25,545 nt of DNA from a virus. Position numbers and translations under genes: made by a program. Positions within the stretch are counted from its first letter, which is position 1, and each line of letters begins with the position of its first letter. Below the pieces are notes generated by a model. It was not told the DNA's origin. It made no database searches and was given only the letters and a program-made list of their open reading frames with translations. Positions 1 to 12,135 of the stretch are shown here, one piece after another. The stretch covers positions 1 to 25,545 of the IMG/VR virus record IMGVR_UViG_3300047474_000053. One strand, written 5' to 3'.

Positions 1-156
1 TAAGAAGGCTTCTATGAAAGTCCATACAGCTCTCTCTAACATATCTTTTAGTTCTTCATTCATCTTATAACTCCAGGCTTCGTTCCAAGGAGTCCACCCT
101 ACATCCATCTTGAATGTACCATCTTGGTTTCTTTTTCTTTTGAATCGTTCAAACAT
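1..156 (-). CDS. Probable holin, partial (C-terminus off the left edge)
   Basis: The ATG at 156 overlaps the stop of the preceding DUF5675 gene as TAATG, and 52 codons are open to the window edge. The visible part starts MFERFKRKRNQDGTFK, is basic at first and then Trp-rich (WTPWNEAW), and reaches LERAVWTFIEAFL where the sequence ends. A basic or neutral head followed by an Arg-x-x-x-Thr-Phe-x-x-Ala-Phe stretch entering a hydrophobic helix is, from memory, typical of small phage holins, which form lysis pores in the inner membrane. Its place after small membrane proteins and a DUF5675 protein fits a lysis cassette. The membrane segments themselves are mostly outside the window, so this rests on the first helix and on context. 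Confidence 0.5.
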   Translation of the reverse strand, partial: MFERFKRKRNQDGTFKMDVGWTPWNEAWSYKMNEELKDMLERAVWTFIEAFL

Positions 157-737
157 TATGTAATAAGTCTACCTTTTAGCATTGCATTTGTTTTGATAAC
201 ATTTCCATTTATCTCTTGAAGTTTTTCATATACGCTATCAGCTAGTATCATATGGTCTTTAGCTTTGTTATCTGCACCACTAAGGTTTATCTTTGTATAT
301 TCTATGGTGACATCATCACCTTTAAGTATTGCACCAGACACTTTAGGATATAGTTTCTTGTACGCATCTGCACTTGAGCCGACCATACCATTAAAGTTTA
401 CATCTAAGTCCTGTTGAGAATTTCCTAAAATGAGACACCCACTGGTATGCTCATCGTTGTTACCTTGGTGGATTAATATAAATTGGAACCCTGGTACATC
501 TTGTAACCATAACATACCTCTATGAAAGGTAGGATATTTCTTGGTGTAACGAGAGTTAAATCCACCAACTGTTCTAAGTTTAAGTTTGTATGTGCCTTCC
601 GGTATGCAGGTTTCGTGCATTACTTTGACTGCTTGGTACTGGTCCTCTAAAGTATAACACTCAAACTTACCATCAATAAACAGCATCCCATTAGTTGCAT
701 CCTTACCAAATTGTGTCCTGACTACTTGTAATTTCAT
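156..737 (-). CDS. DUF5675-family protein, possible cell-wall or lysis enzyme
   Basis: A 193-aa protein whose first ~125 residues match the DUF5675 pattern as I know it: a start like LQVVRTQFGKDATNGMLFID, then CYTLED, an IPEGTYKLKLR strand, a VPGFQFILIHQGN motif and an SGCLILG motif. The His of IHQGN and the Cys of SGC, about 11 residues apart, resemble the His...Ser-x-Gly-Cys arrangement of L,D-transpeptidase (YkuD) active sites. Catalysis is therefore conceivable but is my inference; the family has no established activity that I can cite. The last ~60 residues (after KLYPKVSG) look like a separate, less conserved tail. There is no signal peptide. It lies between membrane/coiled-coil genes and a holin candidate, which fits a lysis role. 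An AAAGG lies just upstream of the ATG. Confidence 0.75.
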   Translation of the reverse strand: MKLQVVRTQFGKDATNGMLFIDGKFECYTLEDQYQAVKVMHETCIPEGTYKLKLRTVGGFNSRYTKKYPTFHRGMLWLQDVPGFQFILIHQGNNDEHTSGCLILGNSQQDLDVNFNGMVGSSADAYKKLYPKVSGAILKGDDVTIEYTKINLSGADNKAKDHMILADSVYEKLQEINGNVIKTNAMLKGRLIT

Positions 738-746
738 ACCTTTATC

Positions 747-1229
747 TTAGTGGCTATGGTTGTTAGCTTCAAGGTATGCCAGTCTAGTTTTTAAATCGTT
801 AAGTTCCCACATATTATTGTTAACAGTTTGTACTTGTGTTTCTACCCTAGTCAACGAATCATTAAGGTCTTGGTACTCCCACTTTTCTAGTAAGTAATAT
901 CTATCTAAATCAAACCCACCATCTCTAACTGTTTGCTCTAAGTTATATAAGTTAGCTTGTAAGGTAGCCATCTCTTCATTGAACCTACCGACATTCTGTG
1001 CAGCCATCTCTAATGATTGTATCTTCTCATACAGTACAGCTATATCATTCTGTACATAAGTGCTATCTTTAAGGGTTACAAATTCATACTCAATATTATT
1101 CATCCTGTCATCAATTCCTGTAAGAGTTATAAGTACAGCGTTAAGAGATTGAATACCTGCACCAACAGAGGACATAAGAGCTATACCTGTTACGACTAGA
1201 CCAAGATTATCTTTAAGTTTTTTAAACAT
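747..1229 (-). CDS. Membrane-anchored coiled-coil protein, probable lysis or tail accessory
   Basis: A 160-aa protein of unknown family. Residues ~1-8 are basic (MFKKLKDN), residues ~9-36 form one hydrophobic segment (LGLVVTGIALMSS... to VLITLTG), and the remainder (~38-155) is a long, mostly charged helix with heptad-like spacing of Leu, Val and Ile, ending NNHSH. The likely topology is an inner-membrane anchor with a soluble coiled coil. The ATG overlaps the stop of the 17-codon ORF upstream (TAATG) and an AGGTAA lies a few bases before it. Position beside other small membrane proteins and a holin candidate suggests a lysis function (spanin-like or holin accessory), but no lipobox or catalytic motif is present. 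Confidence 0.7.
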   Translation of the reverse strand: MFKKLKDNLGLVVTGIALMSSVGAGIQSLNAVLITLTGIDDRMNNIEYEFVTLKDSTYVQNDIAVLYEKIQSLEMAAQNVGRFNEEMATLQANLYNLEQTVRDGGFDLDRYYLLEKWEYQDLNDSLTRVETQVQTVNNNMWELNDLKTRLAYLEANNHSH

Positions 1230-1282
1230 TACTTACCTATCGGACAAGTGTTGCACATACCAGTACATAAACCACAAATCAT
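1229..1282 (-). CDS. 17-residue four-cysteine microprotein (CxxCxxxCxxC)
   Basis: The 53-base gap between two genes is almost exactly filled by a reading frame encoding MICGLCTGMCNTCPIGK. Its ATG follows directly on the TAA of the upstream 70-aa gene, with an AGGTGG a few bases before the ATG. Its TAA shares a base with the ATG of the next gene (TAATG), the same coupling used by certain genes throughout this window. Four cysteines at residues 3, 6, 10 and 13 form C-x2-C-x3-C-x2-C, a spacing that could bind one zinc or an iron-sulfur cluster, or form disulfides. The function is unknown. The fit to both neighbours and the ribosome-binding site argue for real translation; no expression evidence is available. 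Confidence 0.55.
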   Translation of the reverse strand: MICGLCTGMCNTCPIGK

Positions 1283-1495
1283 TTAGCCACCTATCTTCCA
1301 GATTATCTCTGTAATCTCTGAATCAATATTTTGTATGATGTTCAATACATCACTAAGTTTGCTGTTTGAATTTATAACTTCTACTTGTAAGGCAGTAACT
1401 TCTTGTTGTAGATCATTAACTGTTTTAAATAACCAACCTACAAGTGCAGCTAAACCACCTTGTAATACTTGACTTAAATTTACTTGTGCTTTCAT
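1283..1495 (-). CDS. Small membrane/coiled-coil protein
   Basis: A 70-aa protein of unknown family. Residues ~8-24 are hydrophobic with Gly and Ala (LSQVLQGGLAALVGWLF), and residues ~25-66 form an amphipathic helix with regular Leu, Val and Ile (TVNDLQQEVTALQVEV...). This is a short membrane-associated segment followed by a coiled coil, the same plan as its neighbours. A TAGGGATAT stretch just upstream supplies a good ribosome-binding site for the ATG. It sits six bases after the 55-aa gene and directly before the four-cysteine microgene. A holin accessory or XhlA-like role is possible but not shown. Confidence 0.65.
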   Translation of the reverse strand: MKAQVNLSQVLQGGLAALVGWLFKTVNDLQQEVTALQVEVINSNSKLSDVLNIIQNIDSEITEIIWKIGG

Positions 1496-1501
1496 ATATC
1501 C

Positions 1502-1669
1502 CTACATACTTAGGCTACCAACAATTAATATAACTGTGGCAACTAATCCTAATACTTTATAAAATTCTGATTTATCTAACTTCTCATCTAGCTTCTTATC
1601 TATGTCATCTAACTTATCAAATATCATTTGATTCAGTTCTTTCTGTGTAAAGCCATTGGAAGTTGTCAT
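1502..1669 (-). CDS. 55-aa coiled-coil protein with C-terminal membrane segment (XhlA-like plan)
   Basis: A short reading frame below usual length cut-offs, starting at the ATG at 1669, which overlaps the previous stop as TAATG. The protein begins MTTSNGFTQKELNQ, continues through a charged helix rich in Asp, Lys and Leu (KLDDIDKKLDEKLDK, residues ~19-33), and ends with one hydrophobic segment (VLGLVATVILIVGSL, residues ~39-53). A soluble N-terminal coiled coil followed by a single C-terminal membrane helix is the plan of XhlA-type phage lysis accessory proteins. That comparison is by architecture only, since I see no signature motif. Coupling and clean membrane topology make it a real gene in my view. 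Confidence 0.65.
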   Translation of the reverse strand: MTTSNGFTQKELNQMIFDKLDDIDKKLDEKLDKSEFYKVLGLVATVILIVGSLSM

Positions 1670-1812
1670 TATGGAAGGTCATCCTGTGTAAGGAAATCCC
1701 ATTCATCTTGGTATGAAATACGATTATCCCAATCGTAATCGCTTATTCTTTTAATAAATCCGAGAGCTTCTTTTAAAAAATAACCTAAAAGAAAACCAAT
1801 TAAATAATCCAT
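1669..1812 (-). CDS. 47-aa small protein with hydrophobic N-terminus
   Basis: A reading frame from the ATG at 1812 to a TAA that shares a base with the next ATG (TAATG). It encodes MDYLIGFLLGYFLKEALGF, then basic IKR, then a Trp/Asp/Glu-rich tail ending LTQDDLP. Residues ~2-19 could lie in or on the membrane, and the rest is acidic. No family is recognised. I find no clear Shine-Dalgarno sequence, and the ATG lies in the 3' arm of a 7-bp hairpin (1806-1822), so translation may be weak or controlled. Position at the head of the small membrane-protein cluster supports its reality. Confidence 0.5.
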   Translation of the reverse strand: MDYLIGFLLGYFLKEALGFIKRISDYDWDNRISYQDEWDFLTQDDLP

Positions 1813-1822
1813 ACTATGGATT
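1806..1822 (-). promoter_or_regulatory. Hairpin covering the start codon of the 47-aa gene
   Basis: On the minus strand AATCCAT-AGT-ATGGATT forms a perfect 7-bp stem with a 3-base loop, and the ATG of the 47-aa gene is the first half of the 3' arm. It lies just after the end of the glycine-rich fibre gene, at the boundary between the fibre cassette and the putative lysis genes. It could limit translation of the small gene or mark the end of the fibre transcript. There is no clean T-run, so it is not a classical intrinsic terminator. Confidence 0.35.
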
Positions 1823-1847
1823 TTATCATAGAATTTTTAATTAAGGT

Positions 1848-2663
1848 TTAGCTAAAAGTAAAACTACCTGTTCCAGAATTAACACTTGTGTGTTTGTAAT
1901 CCCCAATAGTTGTAGTTGCTACAACTATACTAGTTTCATTTATTGTATATTCTTTTGGATATTTGAGAACAATTATTCCAGAACCTCCAGCTGCACCAGA
2001 ACCATTTTGATGTCCACCCATACCACCTTGACCTGTATTATCTGCTCCAGGTGAAGCATTACCACTGTCTTGCCCTCTACCTATACCACCACTTGCATAA
2101 ATAACAGCAGAACCTGTCATTGATGAACTAGAACCAACACCACCAGAATAACCATTTCCACCAGCACTTCCTTTACCACCTCCGTGACCACCTCTATAAG
2201 GTGGACTACCAGAACTAGAACCACCAGAATTACCTTGACCAGATGTTCCAGAACCACCACCAGCACTTACACCTCCTTGAAATCCACCACCTCCACCACC
2301 AGAACCACCAGAACCACCTGTTTTTGCTGGGCGACCACCAGCACCATAACCTCCACCATTAGCAGTTATGTCTGTTATATCAGAACCTGTAAGAGAAGTG
2401 TTAGTTCCTACACCTCCGTGTGTACCATTACCAGCATCTCCACCTGTATAAATACCATTACTTCCACCACCACCTATTGATACAGAATATGTAGTACCTG
2501 TAGAAAATATTTGACCTGTTGTATCTTCAAGCATACCACCAGCACCACCTCCACCACCAGCTCCTCCACCACCACCACCTGCACCAGCAATGACTAAGGT
2601 TTCAACTAATAAATCGGGTAAAGCAGCTCCAGAAAATCCAAATCTTGTTGCACCTAATGGCAT
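1848..2663 (-). CDS. Glycine-rich receptor-binding protein (tail fibre tip)
   Basis: A 271-aa protein starting MPLGATRFGFSGAALPD, then LVIAG followed by long runs of Gly broken by Ala, Ser and Asn to about residue 230, then SGIIVLKYPKEYTI and a C-terminal strand ending GTGSFTFS. The TTYSVSIGGGG and GGSG-hydrophobic-VLKYP motifs recur in the two other glycine-rich proteins here. Such arrays fit polyglycine-II sandwich domains, known from the T4-like phage S16 adhesin gp38, where loops at the ends bind receptor. It lacks the N-terminal anchor of its neighbours, so it may dock differently. AGGAG lies five bases before the ATG, and the upstream gene ends eight bases away. Role in host recognition is inferred from composition and position. 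Confidence 0.75.
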   Translation of the reverse strand: MPLGATRFGFSGAALPDLLVETLVIAGAGGGGGGAGGGGGAGGMLEDTTGQIFSTGTTYSVSIGGGGSNGIYTGGDAGNGTHGGVGTNTSLTGSDITDITANGGGYGAGGRPAKTGGSGGSGGGGGGFQGGVSAGGGSGTSGQGNSGGSSSGSPPYRGGHGGGKGSAGGNGYSGGVGSSSSMTGSAVIYASGGIGRGQDSGNASPGADNTGQGGMGGHQNGSGAAGGSGIIVLKYPKEYTINETSIVVATTTIGDYKHTSVNSGTGSFTFS

Positions 2664-2671
2664 TTGAACTC

Positions 2672-3136
2672 CTAACTAAAGTCTAATAATGAATTGATTA
2701 AGGGTGTTGAAGCATCAAAGAATAAGAACGATACTAAGTCTATGTCTGCTGCACCTGTACTAAGTGTAAGACCAGCAGCTCCTGGAGTTAGTCCTGTAAC
2801 ATTACCACCACCATTAATTGTAATGGCGTTAATAGCCATAGTCCTGCTACCTGTTCCATCTTGTGTTACTTTTAATGTAAATGAAGAAGTACCATCTGTT
2901 GGTACATTTGTAAAATCTATGTCTGTTACATTGTGTGCAAGTGTTACTGAACCTGTGTTTCCATTTGCTAAATCTATTGTGAGTGTTGTACCAGAAGTAA
3001 CTGCTACATCTTTTTCAACATAGTCTGTTAAGATTGCTCCGACTACTTCACCATCTTTTAATGTAACACTATCTATTGCAACGCCATTAGCAGAAGTCTT
3101 TTCTGATATTGTATCTACTTTAATTTCGCTAGACAT
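2672..3136 (-). CDS. Short tail-fibre protein with shared N-terminal anchor
   Basis: I take the ATG at 3136 (154 aa) as the start, because MSSEIKVDTISEKTSANGVA aligns with the N-termini of three other fibre proteins here. A longer frame from 3208 would add 24 unrelated residues and overlap the upstream gene heavily. With this start the overlap is eight bases. After the anchor (~1-30) comes a beta-rich domain with the pattern TLTIDLANGN, NVTDIDFTNVP, FTLKVTQDGTGSRTM and a closing VSFLFFDAST. I know this arrangement from many phage tail-fibre and appendage proteins. No enzymatic motif is visible. It is probably part of a fibre or collar appendage at the tail tip. Confidence 0.65.
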   Translation of the reverse strand: MSSEIKVDTISEKTSANGVAIDSVTLKDGEVVGAILTDYVEKDVAVTSGTTLTIDLANGNTGSVTLAHNVTDIDFTNVPTDGTSSFTLKVTQDGTGSRTMAINAITINGGGNVTGLTPGAAGLTLSTGAADIDLVSFLFFDASTPLINSLLDFS

Positions 3137-3533
3137 TTGCGAGTTCCCAACCTTGAGTGTTATCACCCTGGTATGCGTTCTCATTCCATATATATTGGTT
3201 ACCATCATCTGGTCCAGCTATAGGTGCTTCCCATACCCAGTTAGAATTAAGTATCCAACTTTCATAAGGTTTAGGTGCTATGAATACATCTTGATCTGGA
3301 TCATAAGTATATCCTATACCTGCATAGTTACCTCTAAAAGGAGTTCCCTCTCCACTGTGTGCATTAGCACTAGTGTTATAGGAAGTTCTTTTACAAGTCT
3401 GTCCTCTAAAATCTCCATACCACGCTTCCCAGTCAGCAAAGCCATCTGGTAAAGTTTCTGTATTGTCCTCATTGATACCAACAATGACTTCTGTCACTAT
3501 GTTGTTATCGTTTATAAATGCGTAATGTGCCAT
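3129..3533 (-). CDS. Conserved marine-phage virion-associated protein (MAHYAFIND type)
   Basis: A 134-aa protein beginning MAHYAFINDNNIVTEVIVG, with CKRTSYNT, RGNYAGIGYTYD, VFIAPKPYESWILN and WVWEAPI. I recognise this series from small proteins widespread in marine T4-like cyanophages and other oceanic phages, usually next to tail-fibre or structural genes; their function is unknown to me. The protein is rich in Trp, Tyr and Asn, and looks all-beta, with no signal or membrane segment. It has its own strong ribosome-binding site (AGGAGAGAG before the ATG), unlike its tightly coupled neighbours, and it is preceded by an orphan fibre C-terminus. Both are consistent with insertion of this gene into the fibre cassette. 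Confidence 0.7.
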   Translation of the reverse strand: MAHYAFINDNNIVTEVIVGINEDNTETLPDGFADWEAWYGDFRGQTCKRTSYNTSANAHSGEGTPFRGNYAGIGYTYDPDQDVFIAPKPYESWILNSNWVWEAPIAGPDDGNQYIWNENAYQGDNTQGWELANV

Positions 3534-3554
3534 AATTTTCTCTCTCCTATTATA

Positions 3555-3593
3555 TCAGCTAAAACTGATTGTACCTGTGTTAATTCTTTTCAT
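3555..3593 (-). pseudogene. Orphan fibre C-terminus (12-codon remnant)
   Basis: The ATG at 3593 overlaps the stop of the 364-aa fibre gene (TAATG), and the frame reads only MKRINTGTISFS before TGA. The last residues copy the way the glycine-rich fibres here end (GTGTVTFS in the 356-aa protein, GTGSFTFS in the 271-aa protein). At the DNA level ACAGG-N-ACA-N-T followed by TTTAGCTGAT is close to the 3' end of the 356-aa gene. I read it as the leftover 3' end of a glycine-rich fibre gene after replacement or insertion. It could also be translated as a meaningless 12-mer. Confidence 0.45.
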
Positions 3594-4687
3594 TATGCCC
3601 AACTTACTGACCCTGTTCCTGCTGTAATTATCAATACAGTATCTTCCTCAATACTATCTGTGGTAGCTGTTAAGCCAGTTGTTGATGCTGTATATGTATT
3701 TGGGTATCTTAGTATTACTACACCACTACCACCAGCAGAACCTGCTTGACTATTTAATCTAGCTCCTCCACCACCTCCACCTGTGTTAGCTGTGCCTGTA
3801 TTATCACTTAAATTTTTTCCATTACCACCACCACCAAGTCCACCAGCAGCACCATTCCTCTCTCTTTCATCAGCACCACCACCTCCACCACCAGAAAAAT
3901 AAACATTTCCACTATCGACTTCTCCAACAGAACGAGATGTTGCAATAGCACTTGTAATTATTGTTGTTGTTAAACCATCTCCACCTACTTGCAATCCATT
4001 ACCAGCACTACCATCAGCTCCTACTTCTGATGCTCCACCACCACCACCACCTACAGAACCATTGTTATTAAAACGACCATTACCACCATTAAAACCTTCT
4101 CCAGCATTTCCAGAACCAGGGCTACCCTGTGTGTTTCCAGCATCTCCACCTGCTTCTCCACCTCCAGAGCCACCATTTCTTCCAGACCTTTGTGTTGCAT
4201 TAGAAACACCACCACCTGCACCACCACCACCACCACCATCAGAAGTATATAAATGAAAAATACTATTGCTACCATCACTACCTCTTGCTTCATTAGTTGC
4301 ACCACCACTTCCACTAGCACCTACAGTTACTGAATAATTAGTGCTAGTTTGTAAAAGAAAACCTGTGTTAGTATCACTACTATTATTATCTAAACTTGTT
4401 TTAAGTCCACCAGCACCACCACCACCAGACCTATCAAATCCACTACCACCACCACCTGCTACAATTAGAAAATCAACAGTCAAACTAGGTGCTGGAGCAA
4501 AATTTGTCCAAGCAGAGCCATTATAAAATTGTGGTTTACTGTCAGTTGTATTGTAAATCATATCACCAGCAACAGAAGTTAAAGCATTTCTAGCAGTTGT
4601 AGTGTATGACTTTAATCCAAGTGCATTATCTATTGCTACATTGTTCTGGTCATTTGTTGAAATCTTATTTGTTTTTAATTCACTCAT
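3593..4687 (-). CDS. Glycine-rich tail-fibre tip protein with N-terminal anchor
   Basis: A 364-aa protein. Residues ~1-66 are the shared anchor: MSELKTNKISTNDQNNVAID, then LGLKSYTTTARNAL, SVAGDMIYNTTDSK and FYNGSAWTNF. From FLIVAGGGGSG onward (~75-325) it is a Gly/Ser/Asn array with NYSVTVGASGSGG and, near the end, GGSGVVILRYPNTYT. The last ~35 residues form a small strand-rich cap ending GTGSVSWA. This matches a polyglycine-sandwich receptor-binding tip joined to a virion-docking head, acting at the tail end in host recognition; the function is inferred. The ATG overlaps the upstream TGA (TGATG). The ending SWA departs from the TFS ending of its paralogues, and an orphan TFS-like end lies just downstream. 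Confidence 0.75.
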   Translation of the reverse strand: MSELKTNKISTNDQNNVAIDNALGLKSYTTTARNALTSVAGDMIYNTTDSKPQFYNGSAWTNFAPAPSLTVDFLIVAGGGGSGFDRSGGGGAGGLKTSLDNNSSDTNTGFLLQTSTNYSVTVGASGSGGATNEARGSDGSNSIFHLYTSDGGGGGGAGGGVSNATQRSGRNGGSGGGEAGGDAGNTQGSPGSGNAGEGFNGGNGRFNNNGSVGGGGGGASEVGADGSAGNGLQVGGDGLTTTIITSAIATSRSVGEVDSGNVYFSGGGGGGADERERNGAAGGLGGGGNGKNLSDNTGTANTGGGGGGARLNSQAGSAGGSGVVILRYPNTYTASTTGLTATTDSIEEDTVLIITAGTGSVSWA

Positions 4688-5757
4688 CAGCTAAATGTCA
4701 CTGTTCCTGTTCCTTGTGTAAATACTATATAACTATCTGAACCATCTGTTTGTACACCACCATCTGTTAAACCTGTTCTTGTTGCACCAATAGTTGCATC
4801 TGCTGTAGCCCATCTTAAAACTACTTCTCCAGAGCCACCATTACCTCCTGTATATGCAGTTTGTCCATTAAGAGAAGCAGCTCCACCTCCACCAGAACCT
4901 GTGTTATCTGTAGCATTACCTGGAGCATTAGCTGCACCTGCTGCACCATTTGAAGCACCAGCTCCACCACCAGAACCTTGACCAGTTCCACCTGCTCCAC
5001 CTCCACCACCACAATAATCTTTTGATGCGTTAGTAATTGTTATTGCTATTTTAGTTCCACCAGTACCACCAGTACCAGAGCTACCATTAGAACCAGCAGA
5101 AGCTGCACCACCACCACCTCCACCATATCCCGAATTATTATTTGGAAAAGAACCATTACCACCAGCGAAACCTTGATTTGTTGTACCAGAGCCACCAGTA
5201 CTTTTACCACCACCACCACCAGAAGCACCATCAAGCAGATTACCATTTCTATCTCTACTTCCACCATTACCACCACCTACAGCTAAAATACCTGCAAATT
5301 CAGTATTGTTACCCTTTGCACCTGTATTTACACCTGAACCAGATGTACCACCACCACCTACAGAAACTCTATATGTTGTAGTACCATCTTTTTTAATAGC
5401 TAAGTAAGGGTTTAAACTTCCACCACCTGCTGCTGTAGCAGTAGGTAAGTTTGTTAAAAAACCACCAGCTCCTCCACCACCAGCGTAATGATAGTATGGT
5501 CCAGTACCACTACCAGAACCTCCACCACCAACTACTAAATAGTTAATTGTAAAAACTGGTAATCCACCTAAATCTTCCCAAGATGAACCATTATAATATT
5601 GAACTTTATTGTCATCAGAGTTGTATATTGTGTCACCAGCAACTGATGTAAGTGCATCTCTAGCACTTGTGCTGTATGACTTTAAATTTAAACTATCATC
5701 AACTGATACATTGTCACCAGAGTATTTACCTATAGCGTTAGTTTCTAGTGTTGACAT
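4687..5757 (-). CDS. Glycine-rich tail-fibre tip protein with N-terminal anchor
   Basis: A 356-aa paralogue of the next gene. The anchor is residues ~1-66 (MSTLETNAIGKYSGDNVSVD, LNLKSYSTSARDAL, SVAGDTIYNSDDNK, YYNGSSWEDL). Then INYLVVGGGGSGSG opens a glycine-rich body to about residue 320, with TTYRVSVGGGG and GGSGEVVLRW. The C-terminus reads GTGTVTFS. The two anchors are far more alike than the glycine-rich bodies, as expected if the tips diversify under host selection while docking is conserved. The ATG overlaps the stop of the 62-aa stub (TAATG), and its own TGA overlaps the next ATG. The DNA is low-complexity (GGW-type codons), favouring slippage and recombination. Receptor-binding role inferred. 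Confidence 0.75.
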   Translation of the reverse strand: MSTLETNAIGKYSGDNVSVDDSLNLKSYSTSARDALTSVAGDTIYNSDDNKVQYYNGSSWEDLGGLPVFTINYLVVGGGGSGSGTGPYYHYAGGGGAGGFLTNLPTATAAGGGSLNPYLAIKKDGTTTYRVSVGGGGTSGSGVNTGAKGNNTEFAGILAVGGGNGGSRDRNGNLLDGASGGGGGKSTGGSGTTNQGFAGGNGSFPNNNSGYGGGGGGAASAGSNGSSGTGGTGGTKIAITITNASKDYCGGGGGAGGTGQGSGGGAGASNGAAGAANAPGNATDNTGSGGGGAASLNGQTAYTGGNGGSGEVVLRWATADATIGATRTGLTDGGVQTDGSDSYIVFTQGTGTVTFS

Positions 5758-5945
5758 TATAAATCACTCCAAGCACTACTACTACGAAATCTCACTTTGT
5801 TACTTGTTGTATTGTAATATATATCTCCTGCTGAACTTACATTAGCAGCAGGGTCAGAGGATAAATTCTTTAAATTTAAAGCACACTGCATAGCAACATT
5901 GTTAGTTGAGCTTGTGCTTATTGTGTTTACTTTGACAGTTACCAT
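5757..5945 (-). CDS. Stand-alone fibre anchor module (62 aa)
   Basis: This small protein consists of the anchor module alone: MVTVKVNTISTSSTNNVAMQ, ALNLKNLSSD, SSAGDIYYNTTSNKVRF and SSSAWSDL, then stop. It aligns over its whole length with the first ~65 residues of the 356-aa and 364-aa fibre proteins and ends just where their distal glycine-rich domains begin. It is coupled to both neighbours by TAATG, so it is unlikely to be a sequencing break. It may cap unused docking sites on the tail, connect the long fibre to the short ones, or be a fibre that has lost its tip. I see no frameshift site joining it to the next gene. Confidence 0.65.
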   Translation of the reverse strand: MVTVKVNTISTSSTNNVAMQCALNLKNLSSDPAANVSSAGDIYYNTTSNKVRFRSSSAWSDL

Positions 5946-8239
5946 TAGATAACTACCAGTGTACCATTATTCGTTACTGTGCCTGTGATTGTGATTGGTC
6001 CAGCCATAACTGAACCTGTGTTAGCTGCGACTGTGTAAGTAGCTGCTTGTGTTTGGTGATGTGTAAATATTCCACCTGCTGTTGTTAATGCTATACCACC
6101 AGCATTCCAAGTAGCCATATCTGTATTGTTTAAGTCATAGTCAATACCATTAGTTAAACCATCTGTAAGTGTAAAGTCTGCATTTCCAACGATAAGTGCG
6201 TTAGCAGAACCAGAAGCTATCTGTGATGGATTAACTTTATAAACTGTGTTGTTAGTTACATCTTCTAAGATTAAGAAATCATTAGCTGTATCTACTGTAA
6301 TACTTGTACCATCAGTTAAGTTAGATGGATCTACTGTAAGGTTAACATCTCCTGATGTTGCACCACCAGCTAAACCAGAGTTGGCTGCTGTGTTTACAGC
6401 AGAAATATCTCCATCAGCTGAACCATTTACCCAGGCAGAACCATTGTATTTAAGTACTTGTCCACTGGATAGTGTGCCTATTGTTACATCATCTAGGTTT
6501 CCTAAATCTATTGCTATGTTTGCTGAACCATTAAAGGATTGACCAGCTATAGTTCTTGCAGTTTGTAGAGTTGTTGCAGTAGTAGCGTTACCAGTTAAAG
6601 CTCCTACAAATGCAGTAGAAGTAACTGATGATAAACCTGTAATTGTTGTGTCTAAGTTAACAGTGACTACACCACTGGTGCCACCACCATTTAAGTTAGT
6701 ACCTGCTGCAACTTCTGTAATATCACCTAAGCTAACTATGTCAGAGATAAGAGCTTTTTTAGTACTGTTATCTGTCACATCTTGGATAATGATAAAGTCG
6801 CTTGTTACTGCTGTAGTTGAAGATAAGTTGTTTGCATCTAAGGTTAAGTCAATAGCACCTTGTGTTCCTCCTCCAGCTAAACCAGAGTCAGAGCCTGTAA
6901 CAATAGCTGTGATGTCACCTTCTGCAATGATGTCACCGATAAGAGCTTTCTTTGTAGAGCCATCTGTTACATCTTCTATAGCTACATAATCAGCTGCTAC
7001 TGCTGTTGCTACTGTGAGTTCGCTAATATCTAAACTTAATGTGTGTGCAATACCTTCACCAGTTGTTGCACCTGTGCTATCAATACCATATCCACCAGTT
7101 ACAGTTGCTACATAGTTTCCTGTAGTATCTGTTCCTAGTGCAACGCTATTAGGTTGTATAGTTGTGGATAGACTTACATTGCCTGATCCATCAAAGCTAA
7201 CTGCTGAAGCTGCAACATCTCCTGTTAGAGAGAAATCTCTAGCTGTAGCGAGAGCTGTAGCTGTACTAGCATTACCTGTTAATGCACCCTCAACATTGAC
7301 TGTTATGGAGCTAGGTAATCCTATTGTAAATGTTTGTCCTGTTAATCCTACAGTTGCTTCATTAGCTGTACCTTGTATAGTTAATGTTTGACTATCTAAG
7401 TCAACAGCACTTGTAGTAGAACCATCTGTTATATCTAAATCTTGTGCAGTTACATTGCTATCTACATAAGCCTTAATAGACTGTTGTGTGGCAAGATGAG
7501 TAGCAGAGTCTGAAGCCATATTATCTTCATCTTTGATAGCTGTACCAGTAGCACTCGTATTAAGTACTGGACTTGTTAATGTTTTATTTGTTAAAGTTTG
7601 TGAGCCTGTAAGCGTTGCAACTGTGCTATCTATTCCAAAAGATATTTTGTTTGTACTAGCAGTTGTAGCTATACCTGTGCCACCTTCTAAATCTAATGTA
7701 TCTGTATCTAAATCTATAGCTATTGGTCCACCAGTATCTGCTGTAAGGTCTAAGTCACTTGCACCTAATTGTGTATCTACATACGCTTTGATAGATTGCT
7801 GTGTTGCTATATGTGTTGCAGAGTTAGATGACATATTGTCCTCATCTTTAACTGCATTACCTGCAACTATCTGTGTTCCAGCTTCGTTAAAGTTTGCATC
7901 TACTCTGTCGTTAATGTCCTCTATGTGTTGTTGTAAAGGAGCCATTCGTACAACAGTTCCTGATGAATGTGATAATCCTGAACTAGCTGCTGAACCTGGT
8001 AAATACCTATTTGGTACAGAGGTTGTTAATTGTTTTGTACCTGTGTTGACAGCAGTAACTAATACTACTTCTCGGTTAGTTGCACTATCAGGGTTTATAA
8101 CAATATAGAAAGGTGCAGAAAGAGTTGTAGGGTAACTATCAACTACAGCATTAACATTAAATGTTGTATCTGATGAACCCATAGTTGAAGTAAGGGTTGT
8201 TTCAAAAGCGTTAAATAGCTTTGTTTCTTGTGCTGTCAT
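5945..8239 (-). CDS. Long repetitive tail fibre protein
   Basis: A 764-aa beta-rich protein, low in Cys and Trp and rich in Thr, Ser, Ala, Gly and Asp. Residues ~1-112 form a head domain (MTAQETKLFNAFETTLTSTM to QQHIEDINDRVD) likely to join the tail. Then come internal repeats: KDEDNM..SATH.ATQQSIKAYVD at ~131-155 and ~236-260, GALTGNA.TAT..TAR twice, and DYVAIEDVTDGSTKKALIGDI with a second close copy (DFIIIQDVTDNSTKKALISDI) and a degenerate third (FLILEDVTNNTVYKV). The final ~120 residues read as a separate end domain finishing NNGTLVVI. This plan is common in trimeric side fibres of marine phages. It lies one base after the nozzle gene and is coupled to the small fibre series by TAATG. It probably forms the shaft for host attachment; partner proteins are inferred only. 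Confidence 0.85.
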   Translation of the reverse strand: MTAQETKLFNAFETTLTSTMGSSDTTFNVNAVVDSYPTTLSAPFYIVINPDSATNREVVLVTAVNTGTKQLTTSVPNRYLPGSAASSGLSHSSGTVVRMAPLQQHIEDINDRVDANFNEAGTQIVAGNAVKDEDNMSSNSATHIATQQSIKAYVDTQLGASDLDLTADTGGPIAIDLDTDTLDLEGGTGIATTASTNKISFGIDSTVATLTGSQTLTNKTLTSPVLNTSATGTAIKDEDNMASDSATHLATQQSIKAYVDSNVTAQDLDITDGSTTSAVDLDSQTLTIQGTANEATVGLTGQTFTIGLPSSITVNVEGALTGNASTATALATARDFSLTGDVAASAVSFDGSGNVSLSTTIQPNSVALGTDTTGNYVATVTGGYGIDSTGATTGEGIAHTLSLDISELTVATAVAADYVAIEDVTDGSTKKALIGDIIAEGDITAIVTGSDSGLAGGGTQGAIDLTLDANNLSSTTAVTSDFIIIQDVTDNSTKKALISDIVSLGDITEVAAGTNLNGGGTSGVVTVNLDTTITGLSSVTSTAFVGALTGNATTATTLQTARTIAGQSFNGSANIAIDLGNLDDVTIGTLSSGQVLKYNGSAWVNGSADGDISAVNTAANSGLAGGATSGDVNLTVDPSNLTDGTSITVDTANDFLILEDVTNNTVYKVNPSQIASGSANALIVGNADFTLTDGLTNGIDYDLNNTDMATWNAGGIALTTAGGIFTHHQTQAATYTVAANTGSVMAGPITITGTVTNNGTLVVI
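7457..7855 (-). repeat. Two-copy repeat inside the long fibre gene
   Basis: Two ~84-base copies, at 7772-7855 and 7457-7540, encode A-V/I-KDEDNM-(S/A)-(S/D)-SATH-(I/L)-ATQQSIKAYVD with a period of 105 residues. The copies differ mainly at synonymous positions and a few conservative residues, indicating an old duplication kept for structure, probably a repeated segment of the fibre shaft. Confidence 0.75.
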
Positions 8240-8240
8240 T

Positions 8241-10220
8241 CTATCCTAATCTCTTTACACCTAGTAATCCTATGGCTAATCCTTCACCACTAGATGAAGT
8301 TGCAATAACCTTACTACCTCTAAATCTTACTAGACAATATTGTGTTACCGACCCTCTTGGAGAAATTTCTTCAATAGGACTACTAACATTTTCTATTATA
8401 CCTCGTAATAAAGTATCTGGTCTGAATATCTCTAATTGAACATTCTGTCCTTCTTTATTTCTTAGTGCCTGATAGATTAAATCGCCTTGTCCATTGACTC
8501 TTAGTGCTTTCCTAAATGGTCTTTCTACCTGATCAGATATATTTATAGGCATATCTACAACCAAGTCATTGACCAACTGGAAACCTCTAACAGCAAACGA
8601 TAATAACTCTGGTGATTGTGATGTATCACTTGTAGTTATAGTAAGTTTTGCAGACATCCATCTACCTTGTACTAACTCTAAAACTTCTTCTTCTCCACCT
8701 GTACCAGAGGCAACAGATATTTGTGGTTCCCAAGTACTAGATGCAGAGTTGTTTATGTCATTAGGAATAGTTGTTGTTGCTAACTCTATAGTTCCTGAAC
8801 TAACACCATTTGTATTTAGCTTTGCTCCTACCCATTGTTTCTTTTCAGATGTATAGAAGTCAGCTAAAGCAGAGATGATATAACCTGTACTTACAAAAGT
8901 ATCTGTCTGTTTATACACACCAACACCACTGATAAGTATGATAAATTTACCTCCAGTTGTACCAGTCTGTGTAATACCTGTAACTTTTGCATTAGCATCA
9001 GAGCTATGTGTCACACTTAAATCTCTAGCTATACCAGCAGTAGGTAAGTAATATCTCCACAAGTTTGTTTCAGTTGCTGATTCGTGTATGCCCATATAGA
9101 CACTATCTCTAGTAACAAACATACTATGTGGACTTTGGTCAACACCATTATCCCATTCTTTTATTAACTGTCTGTTAGCTAAGACATACAAGTTATCTGC
9201 AACAGTTAATTCTGCTGTATAAAATCTACCTGTGTTAGATTGATAACCTTTTGTACCGATATAAACAATACCTTCTGTTGCTGCAAGTGAATGGATCTCT
9301 TCAAAAGGTAACTGTGTTTGTCCTTTAAGACTCCAAGTACCTCCATCAATCTTTAGAGAATAGACATTACTATCTGTGTTACCTGCAATAACTACTGCAC
9401 CTGCATCAACAACACTTGTGAATTGATGTGTTGGTTCTGTTGTAACTAAAGCATCTGTTGTTTCAAAGTCACCAGAAAAGTTAGCTGTGAATGGACTTGA
9501 TTGCCATAAAAACTCTGCTGTTGTGGACTTACCACTAACGAATAATGTACCTTTAGCAAACCAGATCCCTGTAAATGCACCAGTAAATACTGAACCTAAG
9601 TTTTCTGTAGTGAATGTTGTAGCAGATAAGTCATAAGATATAAGTTGTTTGTTTGATCCACCATCTCCTGTGACTATAAATAAATCATTACCGAATGCGA
9701 CTATACCTTGTATTGCATAGCTAACACCAGTACTTGTCATAGCAGTCCAAGTGCCACCCTCATTAATAGATTGATATATGCTTGTACCATCTGTGATATA
9801 CATATAACCATTAGTTGTTTGTGCTAAGTAGTTATTCTCTGATGATAAAGTTAAAGTCTTTTGTTCTACATCTTTCAGTAATCTAACACTGTAAGAGTTA
9901 TCTTGTTCTGCGTGAAAGACATCAATACCTTTGCTATCCCAAAATCTAGAGAAATCATTAGGTGTACCTTCTCTTCTATGTGCTTTATCTAAGCCTTCAC
10001 CACCAGTAAAGTTTGTTCTTGAATAAATCTGACCAAACTCCTGTTGGAAATCCTCTGGTGTTTCTGATGTTTGTATAGCTTGTGCCTGTAGTGGAGCAGT
10101 GTTTATGTTCATCTGCCTACCAGGACCTACAGCAAATCGTAAGAATAAATCATCTAAGTTAGCTTCAAATCCTTGTGCTTGTGGTTGTGCTGTGTTGCTA
10201 GGTGATGGTAATACTGCCAT
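8241..10220 (-). CDS. Beta-propeller-like tail nozzle protein (podovirus tail tubular B type)
   Basis: A 659-aa protein directly after the connector-like gene. The N-terminal ~110 residues contain NLDDLFLRFAVGPGRQMNIN and a conserved RTNFTGGEGLDKAHRRE...RFWDSKGIDVF stretch. Residues ~110-480 hold repeated blades with the look of YMYITDGTSIYQS, LFIVTGDGG, VVIAGNTDSNVYSL, VYIGTKG, VYMGIHE and FIILISGVGVY, each a small beta motif as in propellers. Residues ~530-659 form another domain (VNDLVVDMPINISDQVERPF ... RFRG). T7 gp12 and its relatives, which close the tail channel, are propellers with extra domains, so a nozzle/tail-tube role is my reading. Some siphovirus tail proteins also have propellers, so the assignment is not certain. 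Confidence 0.6.
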   Translation of the reverse strand: MAVLPSPSNTAQPQAQGFEANLDDLFLRFAVGPGRQMNINTAPLQAQAIQTSETPEDFQQEFGQIYSRTNFTGGEGLDKAHRREGTPNDFSRFWDSKGIDVFHAEQDNSYSVRLLKDVEQKTLTLSSENNYLAQTTNGYMYITDGTSIYQSINEGGTWTAMTSTGVSYAIQGIVAFGNDLFIVTGDGGSNKQLISYDLSATTFTTENLGSVFTGAFTGIWFAKGTLFVSGKSTTAEFLWQSSPFTANFSGDFETTDALVTTEPTHQFTSVVDAGAVVIAGNTDSNVYSLKIDGGTWSLKGQTQLPFEEIHSLAATEGIVYIGTKGYQSNTGRFYTAELTVADNLYVLANRQLIKEWDNGVDQSPHSMFVTRDSVYMGIHESATETNLWRYYLPTAGIARDLSVTHSSDANAKVTGITQTGTTGGKFIILISGVGVYKQTDTFVSTGYIISALADFYTSEKKQWVGAKLNTNGVSSGTIELATTTIPNDINNSASSTWEPQISVASGTGGEEEVLELVQGRWMSAKLTITTSDTSQSPELLSFAVRGFQLVNDLVVDMPINISDQVERPFRKALRVNGQGDLIYQALRNKEGQNVQLEIFRPDTLLRGIIENVSSPIEEISPRGSVTQYCLVRFRGSKVIATSSSGEGLAIGLLGVKRLG

Positions 10221-10226
10221 ACGAAC

Positions 10227-11126
10227 CTAGTAGTTAATGTTCATTATCGCTACTGGCTGTGCATACAGAGAGCGTAGATTACCTCTTGCTTCATCAATCA
10301 ACAATGACCTTAGTCGTAGTAATGCGTTTCTTAATCTTTCTCCTGATCCGACAGGATAGTTTTCAGCAGCTAGTTTTTCTGTAATAAATTCTTGTGTTGT
10401 TGCATCTATATCAGTTGCACCTATGATGTCAGCTACTGCTCCGACCATTACAATCTGATGATATGTCTGGTCATCTAGTAAACAGAAAGTAGCTAAGTCC
10501 ACTGTTTCATCAGTAGGTCTAACAAATCTTCTTTTAACTACAAGGTGTACTGTCTTACCTGTTGCAGTGTTATAAAACTGTACTGCTGCGTTTGTACTTG
10601 ATGGTGGGAAATCTCTTAGTAATTCTATACCTGCTGATGTGTACTGACTACCTGATGCAGACTGTACATAGGAGTTAAGAACTTCTACTGTTGATGCTGG
10701 TACTTCTGCGTATGTTGCATTAGAAGTTACATCTGCTGTCGTTACATTCCATAGCGTTGGATATAGTCTTTCTATGTTATCTGATGTTGCATCAAATACA
10801 GACTTACGAGGGAATGTTGGGTTAATAAATATATTATCTTTGTCAGCGTGTGTAGCAGCTGTTGTACCAGAGTAACCTCTTGATACTGACAACACTCTTG
10901 TTGAAGTGTTTGCACTGGTAACTAACATAAGCTCTAGTCCAACCTCTACGATTGCACCATTGCCTAAAAGGTTTTCTTCCTCTACACTAAACAATCCATC
11001 TTCATAAGAAAGTGTGTTTTGTGAGTTAGTCATAGCACCATCTAACCTAGAAAAAGCTGATAAGTCATCAGGTTTATTTAAGTAATCTCTATAAATTCTA
11101 TCTACGAGTGTGCTTACTGCTGCCAT
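10227..11126 (-). CDS. Head-tail connector or tail adaptor-like structural protein
   Basis: A 299-aa protein between the major capsid protein and the propeller protein. It starts MAAVSTLVDRIYRDYLNKPD. A small domain at ~40-100 (LFSVEEENLLGNGAIVEVG, then SRGYSGTTAATHAD) recalls the 'connector' domain that also begins the long fibre here (EVVLVTAV...). After it comes a beta region, then a mostly helical C-terminus from ~215 (LLDDQTYHQIVMVGAVADII ... LRNALLRLRSLLIDEARGN). A helical end with Arg-rich repeats suits an adaptor docking on the portal ring. GGAG lies just before the ATG, immediately downstream of a strong hairpin. Position and plan support adaptor or tail tube A; no specific family is recognised. 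Confidence 0.5.
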   Translation of the reverse strand: MAAVSTLVDRIYRDYLNKPDDLSAFSRLDGAMTNSQNTLSYEDGLFSVEEENLLGNGAIVEVGLELMLVTSANTSTRVLSVSRGYSGTTAATHADKDNIFINPTFPRKSVFDATSDNIERLYPTLWNVTTADVTSNATYAEVPASTVEVLNSYVQSASGSQYTSAGIELLRDFPPSSTNAAVQFYNTATGKTVHLVVKRRFVRPTDETVDLATFCLLDDQTYHQIVMVGAVADIIGATDIDATTQEFITEKLAAENYPVGSGERLRNALLRLRSLLIDEARGNLRSLYAQPVAIMNINY

Positions 11127-11137
11127 ATATCTCCATA

Positions 11138-11173
11138 TTACTAGAGGGAGAAGTATTTATCTCCCTCTAATAA
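11138..11173 (-). terminator. Strong hairpin downstream of the capsid gene (attenuator/processing candidate)
   Basis: A 14-bp stem with one G-T wobble and an 8-base loop. On the minus strand TTATTAGAGGGAGA pairs with TCTCCCTCTAGTAA around TAAATACT. It lies 20 bases after the capsid TAA (followed by a second TAA) and just before the GGAG of the next gene. The stem is strong and GC-rich for this genome, but no T-run follows, so a complete intrinsic terminator is unlikely. Partial termination or protection of the capsid mRNA 3' end would give extra capsid relative to tail genes, which is a common need. Confidence 0.6.
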
Positions 11174-11193
11174 ATATACTATCTATCTTTTTA

Positions 11194-12135
11194 TTAGGCT
11201 ACAGATAGGTTTGTTATCTTTGCGTGGAACTGTTCTGGACCATATTCTAATCCAATTTCTCCATACACTTGGTACTTATAAGCTGCACCAGTTTGAGCTA
11301 ATGGCTCAACAAAGAAGTGTCCTTTTCCTGGAATGTCCAAGAAAACTGGCTTCATAAACGCAAGATCAGCAATGAGAACATCATCAGCTGGTATGTGTCG
11401 TTCAAAAACGATACCTACTTGACCGAAGTCTGTTTCTATTGTTGTGATATTAACGCCACCGATATTTCTATCTCTTGGTGCTAAAGCTAAAGCACTTGAA
11501 TAGATAGAAGATAGTTTCTGCTTTTGAAAAGCATTAGCGAATATAACTGGCATCTCAAATGGAGCACCAGAGTCAGCCATTTTCTTTAAAGCTGATTCTA
11601 CTTTTGCTTGTGTCAAAGCAGCTGCACCACCAGCAACTTCGTTAGTTGTTACTGCTGCTAACATACCTCTAGTTTTTCTAGCTGTACCTATGTTGGCACC
11701 TGCGTTATAAGCTCCTTGAATAAAGGAATGCTCAATATCTCTTGCAGCTGTTTTCATAGCCATATCTAATTGGAAAGCCAATTCATCTTGAACTGGTTGA
11801 TTACCAATGATGGATTCACCTGCAAGGTTTCCAACTGCTGCTTGTTTGGTGTATGATACTTCAACACCATACTGCATTATTTGAGTAACATTGCTTACTT
11901 CGCTTCTTGTTCTACCTTTCATAGTAGGGTCAGCACCTTCAGTAGCTACATTTGCTTGTGTAGCTCCTGCGAGGTCTGTTGTCTGCCAAGTAAATTGTTT
12001 TGATGCGACTGATATACCACCAGTCATACCACCAATTGCACTCAATAATGGAGTATCTGTAGGGGAAACATTAAATAGTTCTCCTACATAGTTAGGGAGG
12101 TTAAAGGATTGTCCTTGACCTGTTATTGCACCCAT
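11194..12135 (-). CDS. Major capsid protein, SU10/DUF5309 type
   Basis: A 313-aa protein with the features I know from the SU10-like (DUF5309) branch of HK97-fold capsid proteins. It opens with FNLPNYVGELFNVSPTDTPL, followed by KQFTWQTTDL, ATQANVATEGAD and RTRSEVSNVTQIMQYGVEVS. A helix with ELAFQLDMAMKTAARDIEHS carries the usual Asp/Glu-rich spine. The C-terminal half includes NVTTI/ETDFGQVGIVFER, LIADLAFMKPVFLDIPGKGH and YQVYGEIGLEYG. It forms the icosahedral shell around the scaffold encoded just upstream. Length is normal for an unprocessed member, and I see no separate N-terminal delta domain, consistent with a separate scaffold. The start has the best ribosome-binding site in the window. 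Confidence 0.9.
   Translation of the reverse strand: MGAITGQGQSFNLPNYVGELFNVSPTDTPLLSAIGGMTGGISVASKQFTWQTTDLAGATQANVATEGADPTMKGRTRSEVSNVTQIMQYGVEVSYTKQAAVGNLAGESIIGNQPVQDELAFQLDMAMKTAARDIEHSFIQGAYNAGANIGTARKTRGMLAAVTTNEVAGGAAALTQAKVESALKKMADSGAPFEMPVIFANAFQKQKLSSIYSSALALAPRDRNIGGVNITTIETDFGQVGIVFERHIPADDVLIADLAFMKPVFLDIPGKGHFFVEPLAQTGAAYKYQVYGEIGLEYGPEQFHAKITNLSVA

Follow-up and report, generated by a model that had tools for sequence, protein, structure and literature searches.

The region described here lies in a window of 25,545 nucleotides (the whole stretch analysed, positions 1 to 25,545 of IMG/VR virus record IMGVR_UViG_3300047474_000053), in which the minus strand carries, in this order, a 62-aa stem gene, two glycine-rich fibre genes (F1 and F2), a 12-codon stub, a 134-aa gene, a gene starting MSSEIKV and a 271-aa glycine-rich gene. 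The stem gene (5757..5945, minus) is a stand-alone N-terminal (stem) domain of a fibre. It is followed by F1 (4687..5757, minus; 356 aa, MSTLETNA..GTVTFS), whose TGA overlaps the ATG of F2 (TGATG), and by F2 itself (3593..4687, minus; 364 aa, MSELKTNK..GSVSWA), a fibre or adhesin of the Pfam family Gly_rich_2 (PF21722). The profile search matched the 364-aa protein to this family with an E-value of 1.2e-21 and 78.2 bits against a cut-off of 24.3, and both F1 and the 271-aa protein, product of the third glycine-rich gene of the window, match it as well. The right-hand neighbour of the last fibre is the 134-aa gene (phrog_7759; 3129..3533, minus), preceded by a short spacer with its ribosome-binding site (TATAATAGGAGAGAGAAAATT; 3534..3554, minus). 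A 178-aa frame listed at 2672-3208 (minus) overlaps this gene, and the start of its family is probably MSSEIKV at 3136 and not 3208. Stem-only genes of 61-64 aa (MVTVKV/MANVKV.., mostly ending WNDL, WSDL or WGDL) precede F1 in many arrays and are therefore probably real genes rather than broken fibres.

Relatives of the 134-aa protein are present in 31 cultured-phage records, all below 60% identity, and searches of cultured phages gave no match either for the DNA of window positions 1-12000 or for the fibre N-terminus. For the major capsid protein (11194-12135, minus), the top matches among those listed belong to Mycobacterium and Propionibacterium phages at about 47% identity, which hints that this AT-rich phage has an actinobacterial host.

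Between F2 and the 134-aa gene, positions 3593-3555 of the minus strand read ATG AAA AGA ATT AAC ACA GGT ACA ATC AGT TTT AGC TGA. This stub (MKRINTGTISFS and a stop; 3555..3593, minus) is a real frame with exactly the coordinates given in the preliminary description, and its ATG overlaps the TAA of the 364-aa gene by one common base (GCATAATG). The right half (ACAGGTACAATCAGTTTTAGCTGA; 3555..3578, minus) is an orphan fibre 3' end, homologous to the in-frame F2 ends of relatives, and forms the recombination seam. The left half (ATGAAAAGAATTAAC, encoding MKRIN; 3579..3593, minus) is identical in all seven stub sequences and resembles a fibre-gene start (MSRINTNT in contig L012), from which it may derive. 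Although the stub frame is open in 7/7 sequences, 35% of spacer shuffles (11-codon stretch, same composition) are open too, and the 12-codon frame itself is probably without function. Two candidate explanations were dropped: a -1 frameshift by which the 364-aa gene would be read on into the orphan frame, as inspection of the sequence found no slippery heptamer before the TAA, and a conserved short gene, as open frames are not in excess over shuffles.

To place the stub among its relatives, we used IMG/VR protein searches with F2 (43 loci) and with the 134-aa protein (best 80 of 103 loci), which together gave 70 distinct rows in an alignment upstream of the 134-aa gene. Most of these rows fall into a few classes. 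Class A has a last fibre that stays in frame up to its end, mostly ..FS-TGA-TATAATAGGAG, while class B, which includes the window, has a different fibre end followed by TAATGAAAAGAATTAACA and the orphan end; classes C and D have fibre ends mostly of the TAATG type (TAG in the class C row L003) with other spacers behind. Class B consists of the window and six contigs from samples 3300050343 (two), 3300037635, 3300021371, 3300025652 and 3300025099. When the entire collection was scanned for CATAATG and TATAATAGGAG separated by a gap of 22-52, 60 stretches were returned, and in nine contigs (six of class B, three of class C) they precede a gene of the 134-aa family.

The preliminary description had noted a likeness of the stub end to fibre 3' ends. 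This likeness, which covers the last 21 nt and the following TGATATAATAGGAG, is not due to chance, as the 32-mer GGTACAATCAGTTTTAGCTGATATAATAGGAG occurs exactly in 17 IMG/VR contigs. Five of them carry the stub, and in 12/12 others a frame runs into the 32-mer. These 12 no-stub contigs correspond to 11 rows (two with the same sequence were merged), most of which have a long fibre frame; the weaker cases are L076, with only 13 codons before the contig edge, and L077, whose gene is frameshifted further up. Wherever the array is complete, the gene in the slot with the orphan end begins MSELKTN and is the same gene as the 364-aa F2 of the window. As the F2-slot fibre of these relatives runs into the orphan 32-mer, the orphan end is the old end of the fibre in the F2 slot, and the relatives of class A supply what had been proposed as confirmation, namely an F2 gene that continues in frame into the orphan end. 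On the other hand, the SVSWA end of F2 is not abnormal for a fibre, as had been assumed: fibres regularly end in SFA, SWA or SWT with TAATG behind (9/30 F1 genes, for example, have SFA-TAA), and ends of the SVSWA-TAATG type are common on fibres with another fibre behind.

Apart from these classes, the arrays vary in length: those with a third fibre (MSRLKVDN..) occur among L004, L007, L010/L011 and L015, an MSRINTNT fibre follows F1 in L012, and F1 runs straight into the 134-aa gene in L108. L066, L070, L080 and L003 form a spacer class with a 17-codon frame (e.g., MKDFKYNKTLTVVYNRR) ending just before the 134-aa start, which may be an older scar (compare the TAGTGTATAATAGGAG ends in L069, L094 and L096). 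Likeness to the fibre N-terminus MSELKTNKI is moderate for the short frames of class C (14-16/24 nt; Markov 0.002-0.02, shuffles 0.02-0.13), and the class D frames of L010 and L015 have no resemblance to it. Fibre genes with frameshifts or small indels are found in L018/L133, L056 and L063 (sample 3300050343); these are perhaps sequencing errors, and counts using these contigs are less sure.

The seam itself can be located by comparing stub and no-stub contigs. L050, which has the stub, and L082, which lacks it, share 99.47% identity across 5,281 columns, starting at -42 from the ATG of the 134-aa gene, at CACAGGTACAATC. Left of this point the two contigs have different fibre bodies, and alignment is limited to the stem (78%) and two short collinear stretches (29 and 46 columns). 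This sharp break of identity at the orphan end, with different fibres to its left, marks the stub as a recombination scar. In 6/8 distinct stub/no-stub pairs (L047 and L001 being one contig) the homology on the right begins between -39 and -45, and in the other two (L062/L090 and L002/L090) the alignment is continuous through the seam at 72-77% with no visible break; this pairwise comparison covered collinear pieces of more than 25 columns. Counted leftward from the TGA, each stub row matches its best no-stub row (best of 28) exactly for 19-22 nt. Furthermore, polymorphisms of no-stub relatives recur in the stub contigs: L084 and L082 have ATCACATTT in common, within the right half of the stub, and the window, L056/L075 and L091 have AGAGAGAAAATT, within the spacer that follows. 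This points to a scar carried by recombination and not to an independent gene. The junction is nearly the same in all stub sequences, with L074 and L084 differing by one and two bases.

Besides marking an exchange, the stub also moves. It is common to the window and the six contigs of class B, which have six different F2 tips. The window and L001 differ by 3 mismatches (99.7% identity) from the ATG of F2 to the last bases before the 134-aa gene, with a 6-base gap after the block of F2 and stub, just before that gene. Within the 134-aa gene, the first 240 bases are 93-100% identical per 60-base step and the following ones 44-69%; F1 on the left is 37-70% identical. Since near-identity is thus limited to F2, the stub and the adjoining stretch, F2 together with its stub has moved as a unit. 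We also placed the classes on a tree of the 134-aa gene, which comprised 51 of the 70 rows (at least 65% identity and at least 180 nt of the gene), without the stub row L135 (contig edge) and with L133 (indels at the fibre end) assigned to class A by hand. On this tree, whose bootstrap is not settled and whose gene itself recombines, the six B rows need 6 changes (shuffled mean 5.8), at least 4 of which are forced by the starred branches. The B rows are unclustered and class B is therefore not a lineage; taken together with the six different tips, this argues that the stub travels with fibre cassettes.

With regard to the origin of the new tip, stop types and tip matches fit an exchange between slots of the array. 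The TAA stop is found in 7/7 stub (class B) F2 genes, 0/18 no-stub (class A) F2 genes and 18/30 F1 genes. The best match of the last 240 nt is an F1 gene for 6/7 F2 genes of class B versus 6/18 of class A, when the candidates were limited to F1 genes and class A F2 genes from other contigs (Fisher 0.027 one-sided, or 0.048 with window and L001 counted once; the samples are small and the rows not independent). The tip presumably stems from an F1-type gene. The F1 gene of the window is the only one of 30 internal F1 genes that ends TFS-TGA (TGATG overlap), and its tip (last 240 nt) is closest to the F2 end of L082 (236 versus 167 bits), which suggests an exchange in the opposite direction, of an F2 end into F1.

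As to the left half of the stub, ATGAAAAGAATTAACACA agrees with the L012 fibre start ATGAGCAGAATTAATACA in 12/15 bases after the ATG (Markov 0.0004, shuffles 0.0026), a level reached by 5 of 823 ATG contexts of the window (the stub, three fibre-type starts and one other). Without the ACA, which is shared with the C-terminal end, the likeness is weak (9/12; Markov 0.011, shuffles 0.057). The searches found no full-length fibre starting MKRINT, the nearest being MSRINTNT in two contigs (L012/L014) of a more distant phage. It is likely but unproved, and suggestive only, that the first codons of the stub (MKRIN) represent the start of a following fibre gene. The sequences directly show a likeness between the fibre start of L012 and the F2 end (ACAnnTACAAT), which would ease the joining of the two.

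Based on the intact relatives, the sister pair L050/L082, the shared cassette and the lack of clustering on the tree, the 39 bases are very probably a recombination scar, located where a swappable tail-fibre cassette has its right-hand edge. Within the usual array order of stem gene, F1 fibre, F2 fibre and 134-aa gene, the ancestral F2 would have ended ..GT(I/V)(S/T)FS-TGA-TATAATAGGAG directly before the 134-aa gene. An upstream-type tip (S(F/W)(A/T)-TAATG, with the next ATG overlapping the stop) would then have recombined into the F2 slot, presumably between co-infecting phages, bringing its own stop and the first codons of the next frame and joining the old F2 end at ACAGGTACAAT, so that the last seven or eight codons of the old F2 and its stop remained. 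From then on F2 and stub would have been passed from phage to phage together as a cassette, bounded on the right by a crossover within the orphan end or just past it and on the left by one at, or close to, the start of F2.

The core of the preliminary description, a recombination scar, is thus borne out by the in-frame F2 relatives and by the near-identity of L050 and L082, which starts at the orphan end; the proposal of a replaced tip with the old end left behind is therefore right. The alternative offered there, a fibre that had been cut, does not hold, as the 364-aa protein has a complete end of another type. Conservation of the 12 codons as a unit in diverse phages had been named as evidence against a scar; the frame does recur in seven sequences with six tips, but the no-stub polymorphisms in its right half and spacer speak against such a unit.

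A different history would start from a longer array, in which an ancestral third fibre (F3) behind F2 was deleted except for its MKRINT start (five or six codons) and its last six codons (GTISFS) in frame, and the old end would then be that of F3 and not of F2. Three-fibre F1-F2-F3 arrays do adjoin the 134-aa gene (complete in L010/L011 and L015, F2 and F3 at the contig edge in L004, an F3 start after F2 in L007), in L015 the SFA-TAATG end of F2 lies directly on the start of F3, the starts of F3 genes (MSRLKVDN or MSRINTNT) are similar to MKRINT, and the common frame of start and end observed here is what a deleted gene would retain. However, the F3 genes next to the 134-aa gene end SGxVSWS-TAATG and none of them GTISFS-TGATATAATAGGAG, the way F2 ends in two-fibre genomes, and on the tree of the 134-aa gene the three-fibre contigs group in a clade of their own (class D: 1 change, support 100/99). 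We consider such a contraction rather unlikely.

Selection may also have played a role. Stop-start overlaps can couple the translation of neighbouring genes, as set out in the available part of one source (PMC6728339), and the stub might have been kept as a 12-codon translational adapter with a restart at TAATG and a stop at the TGA of the original F2, whose distance to the ribosome-binding site would be unchanged. Seven sequences with six F2 tips agree in all of the left 15 nt, each of the seven has the frame open, and other last fibres with a TAATG end also have short frames (17 codons with MKDFKYNK../MKVLKNNK.. in L066, L070 and L080; 16-18 codons with MQ.. in L011, L015 and L004), as does L003 behind a fibre ending TAG (17 codons). 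Nevertheless, shuffles give an open 11-codon stretch in 35% of cases and longer ones in 10-19%, the frames are broken in L007 and L105 (MTNF and MVEKILI before a stop), L104 is without an ATG, and the identity among the stubs is explained equally well by recent spread, which makes selective retention quite improbable. It would be an improbable turn, too, if a scar had become a portable 12-codon stop-start adapter that lets upstream tips fit the last slot with translation of the 134-aa gene kept; if the adapter reading were true, tips would be shuffled between slots as well as between phages. Finally, all stub sequences found are metagenome contigs, some of those from sample 3300050343 with frameshifted fibres, as would suit chance similarity or chimeric assembly. 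The likelihood of this is practically negligible, given the exact 32-nt match at the homologous place in 17 contigs and the nearly identical junction in all stub sequences, which comprise the window and six contigs with five different sample numbers.

Read as a recombination scar, the stub locates one edge of an exchanged adhesin cassette with a precision of a few bases, suggests that exchange occurs not only between phages but also between two slots within one array, and is usable as a marker to count fibre swaps in metagenomes. Such exchange has precedents. The fibre mosaics of P2, P1 and Mu reflect exchange of tail-fibre modules between unrelated phages, and according to Tetart and co-workers, gp38 tips are reportedly exchanged by recombination between conserved motifs. 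A fibre module with an adjoining small gene is likewise common to different Alteromonas phages, according to the available part of that report (PMC10579305). In contrast to the exchange between unrelated phages in the Alteromonas-type, P2, P1 and Mu cases, the exchange here involves relatives and, apparently, two slots of one array.

As far as the available parts of the literature describe it, glycine-rich adhesins with constant and hypervariable parts set the host range of T-even phages (PMC6851490, PMC12892980) and of haloarchaeal hafunaviruses (PMC8651126), and the fibres of the window would presumably bind host receptors as well. A search of PDB sequences with the fibre, in which the solved gp38 chains were of interest, gave no match at E-values up to 1. 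Like the gp38 of T2, S16 and PP01, as covered in those T-even sources, the fibres combine a glycine-rich, presumably receptor-binding tip at the fibre end with constant blocks and variable stretches (PMC6851490, PMC12892980). Unlike in T-even gp38, stem and tip are united in one gene, usually two (one to three) such genes stand in tandem, and a legible stub remains at the outer 3' end after the exchange. The hypervariable region of the haloarchaeal hafunaviruses also has a glycine-rich fibre gene followed by a small gene, varying between otherwise close viruses; these are different viruses, and a leftover gene end is not described in the available part of that report (PMC8651126). Compared with these systems, the locus is a case of ordinary adhesin module shuffling that is unusually legible, the principle of modular fibre-tip exchange being already known, and what it shows is a well-resolved scar left by the exchange of fibre tips, in a phage family known here from metagenomes, rather than a new kind of system.
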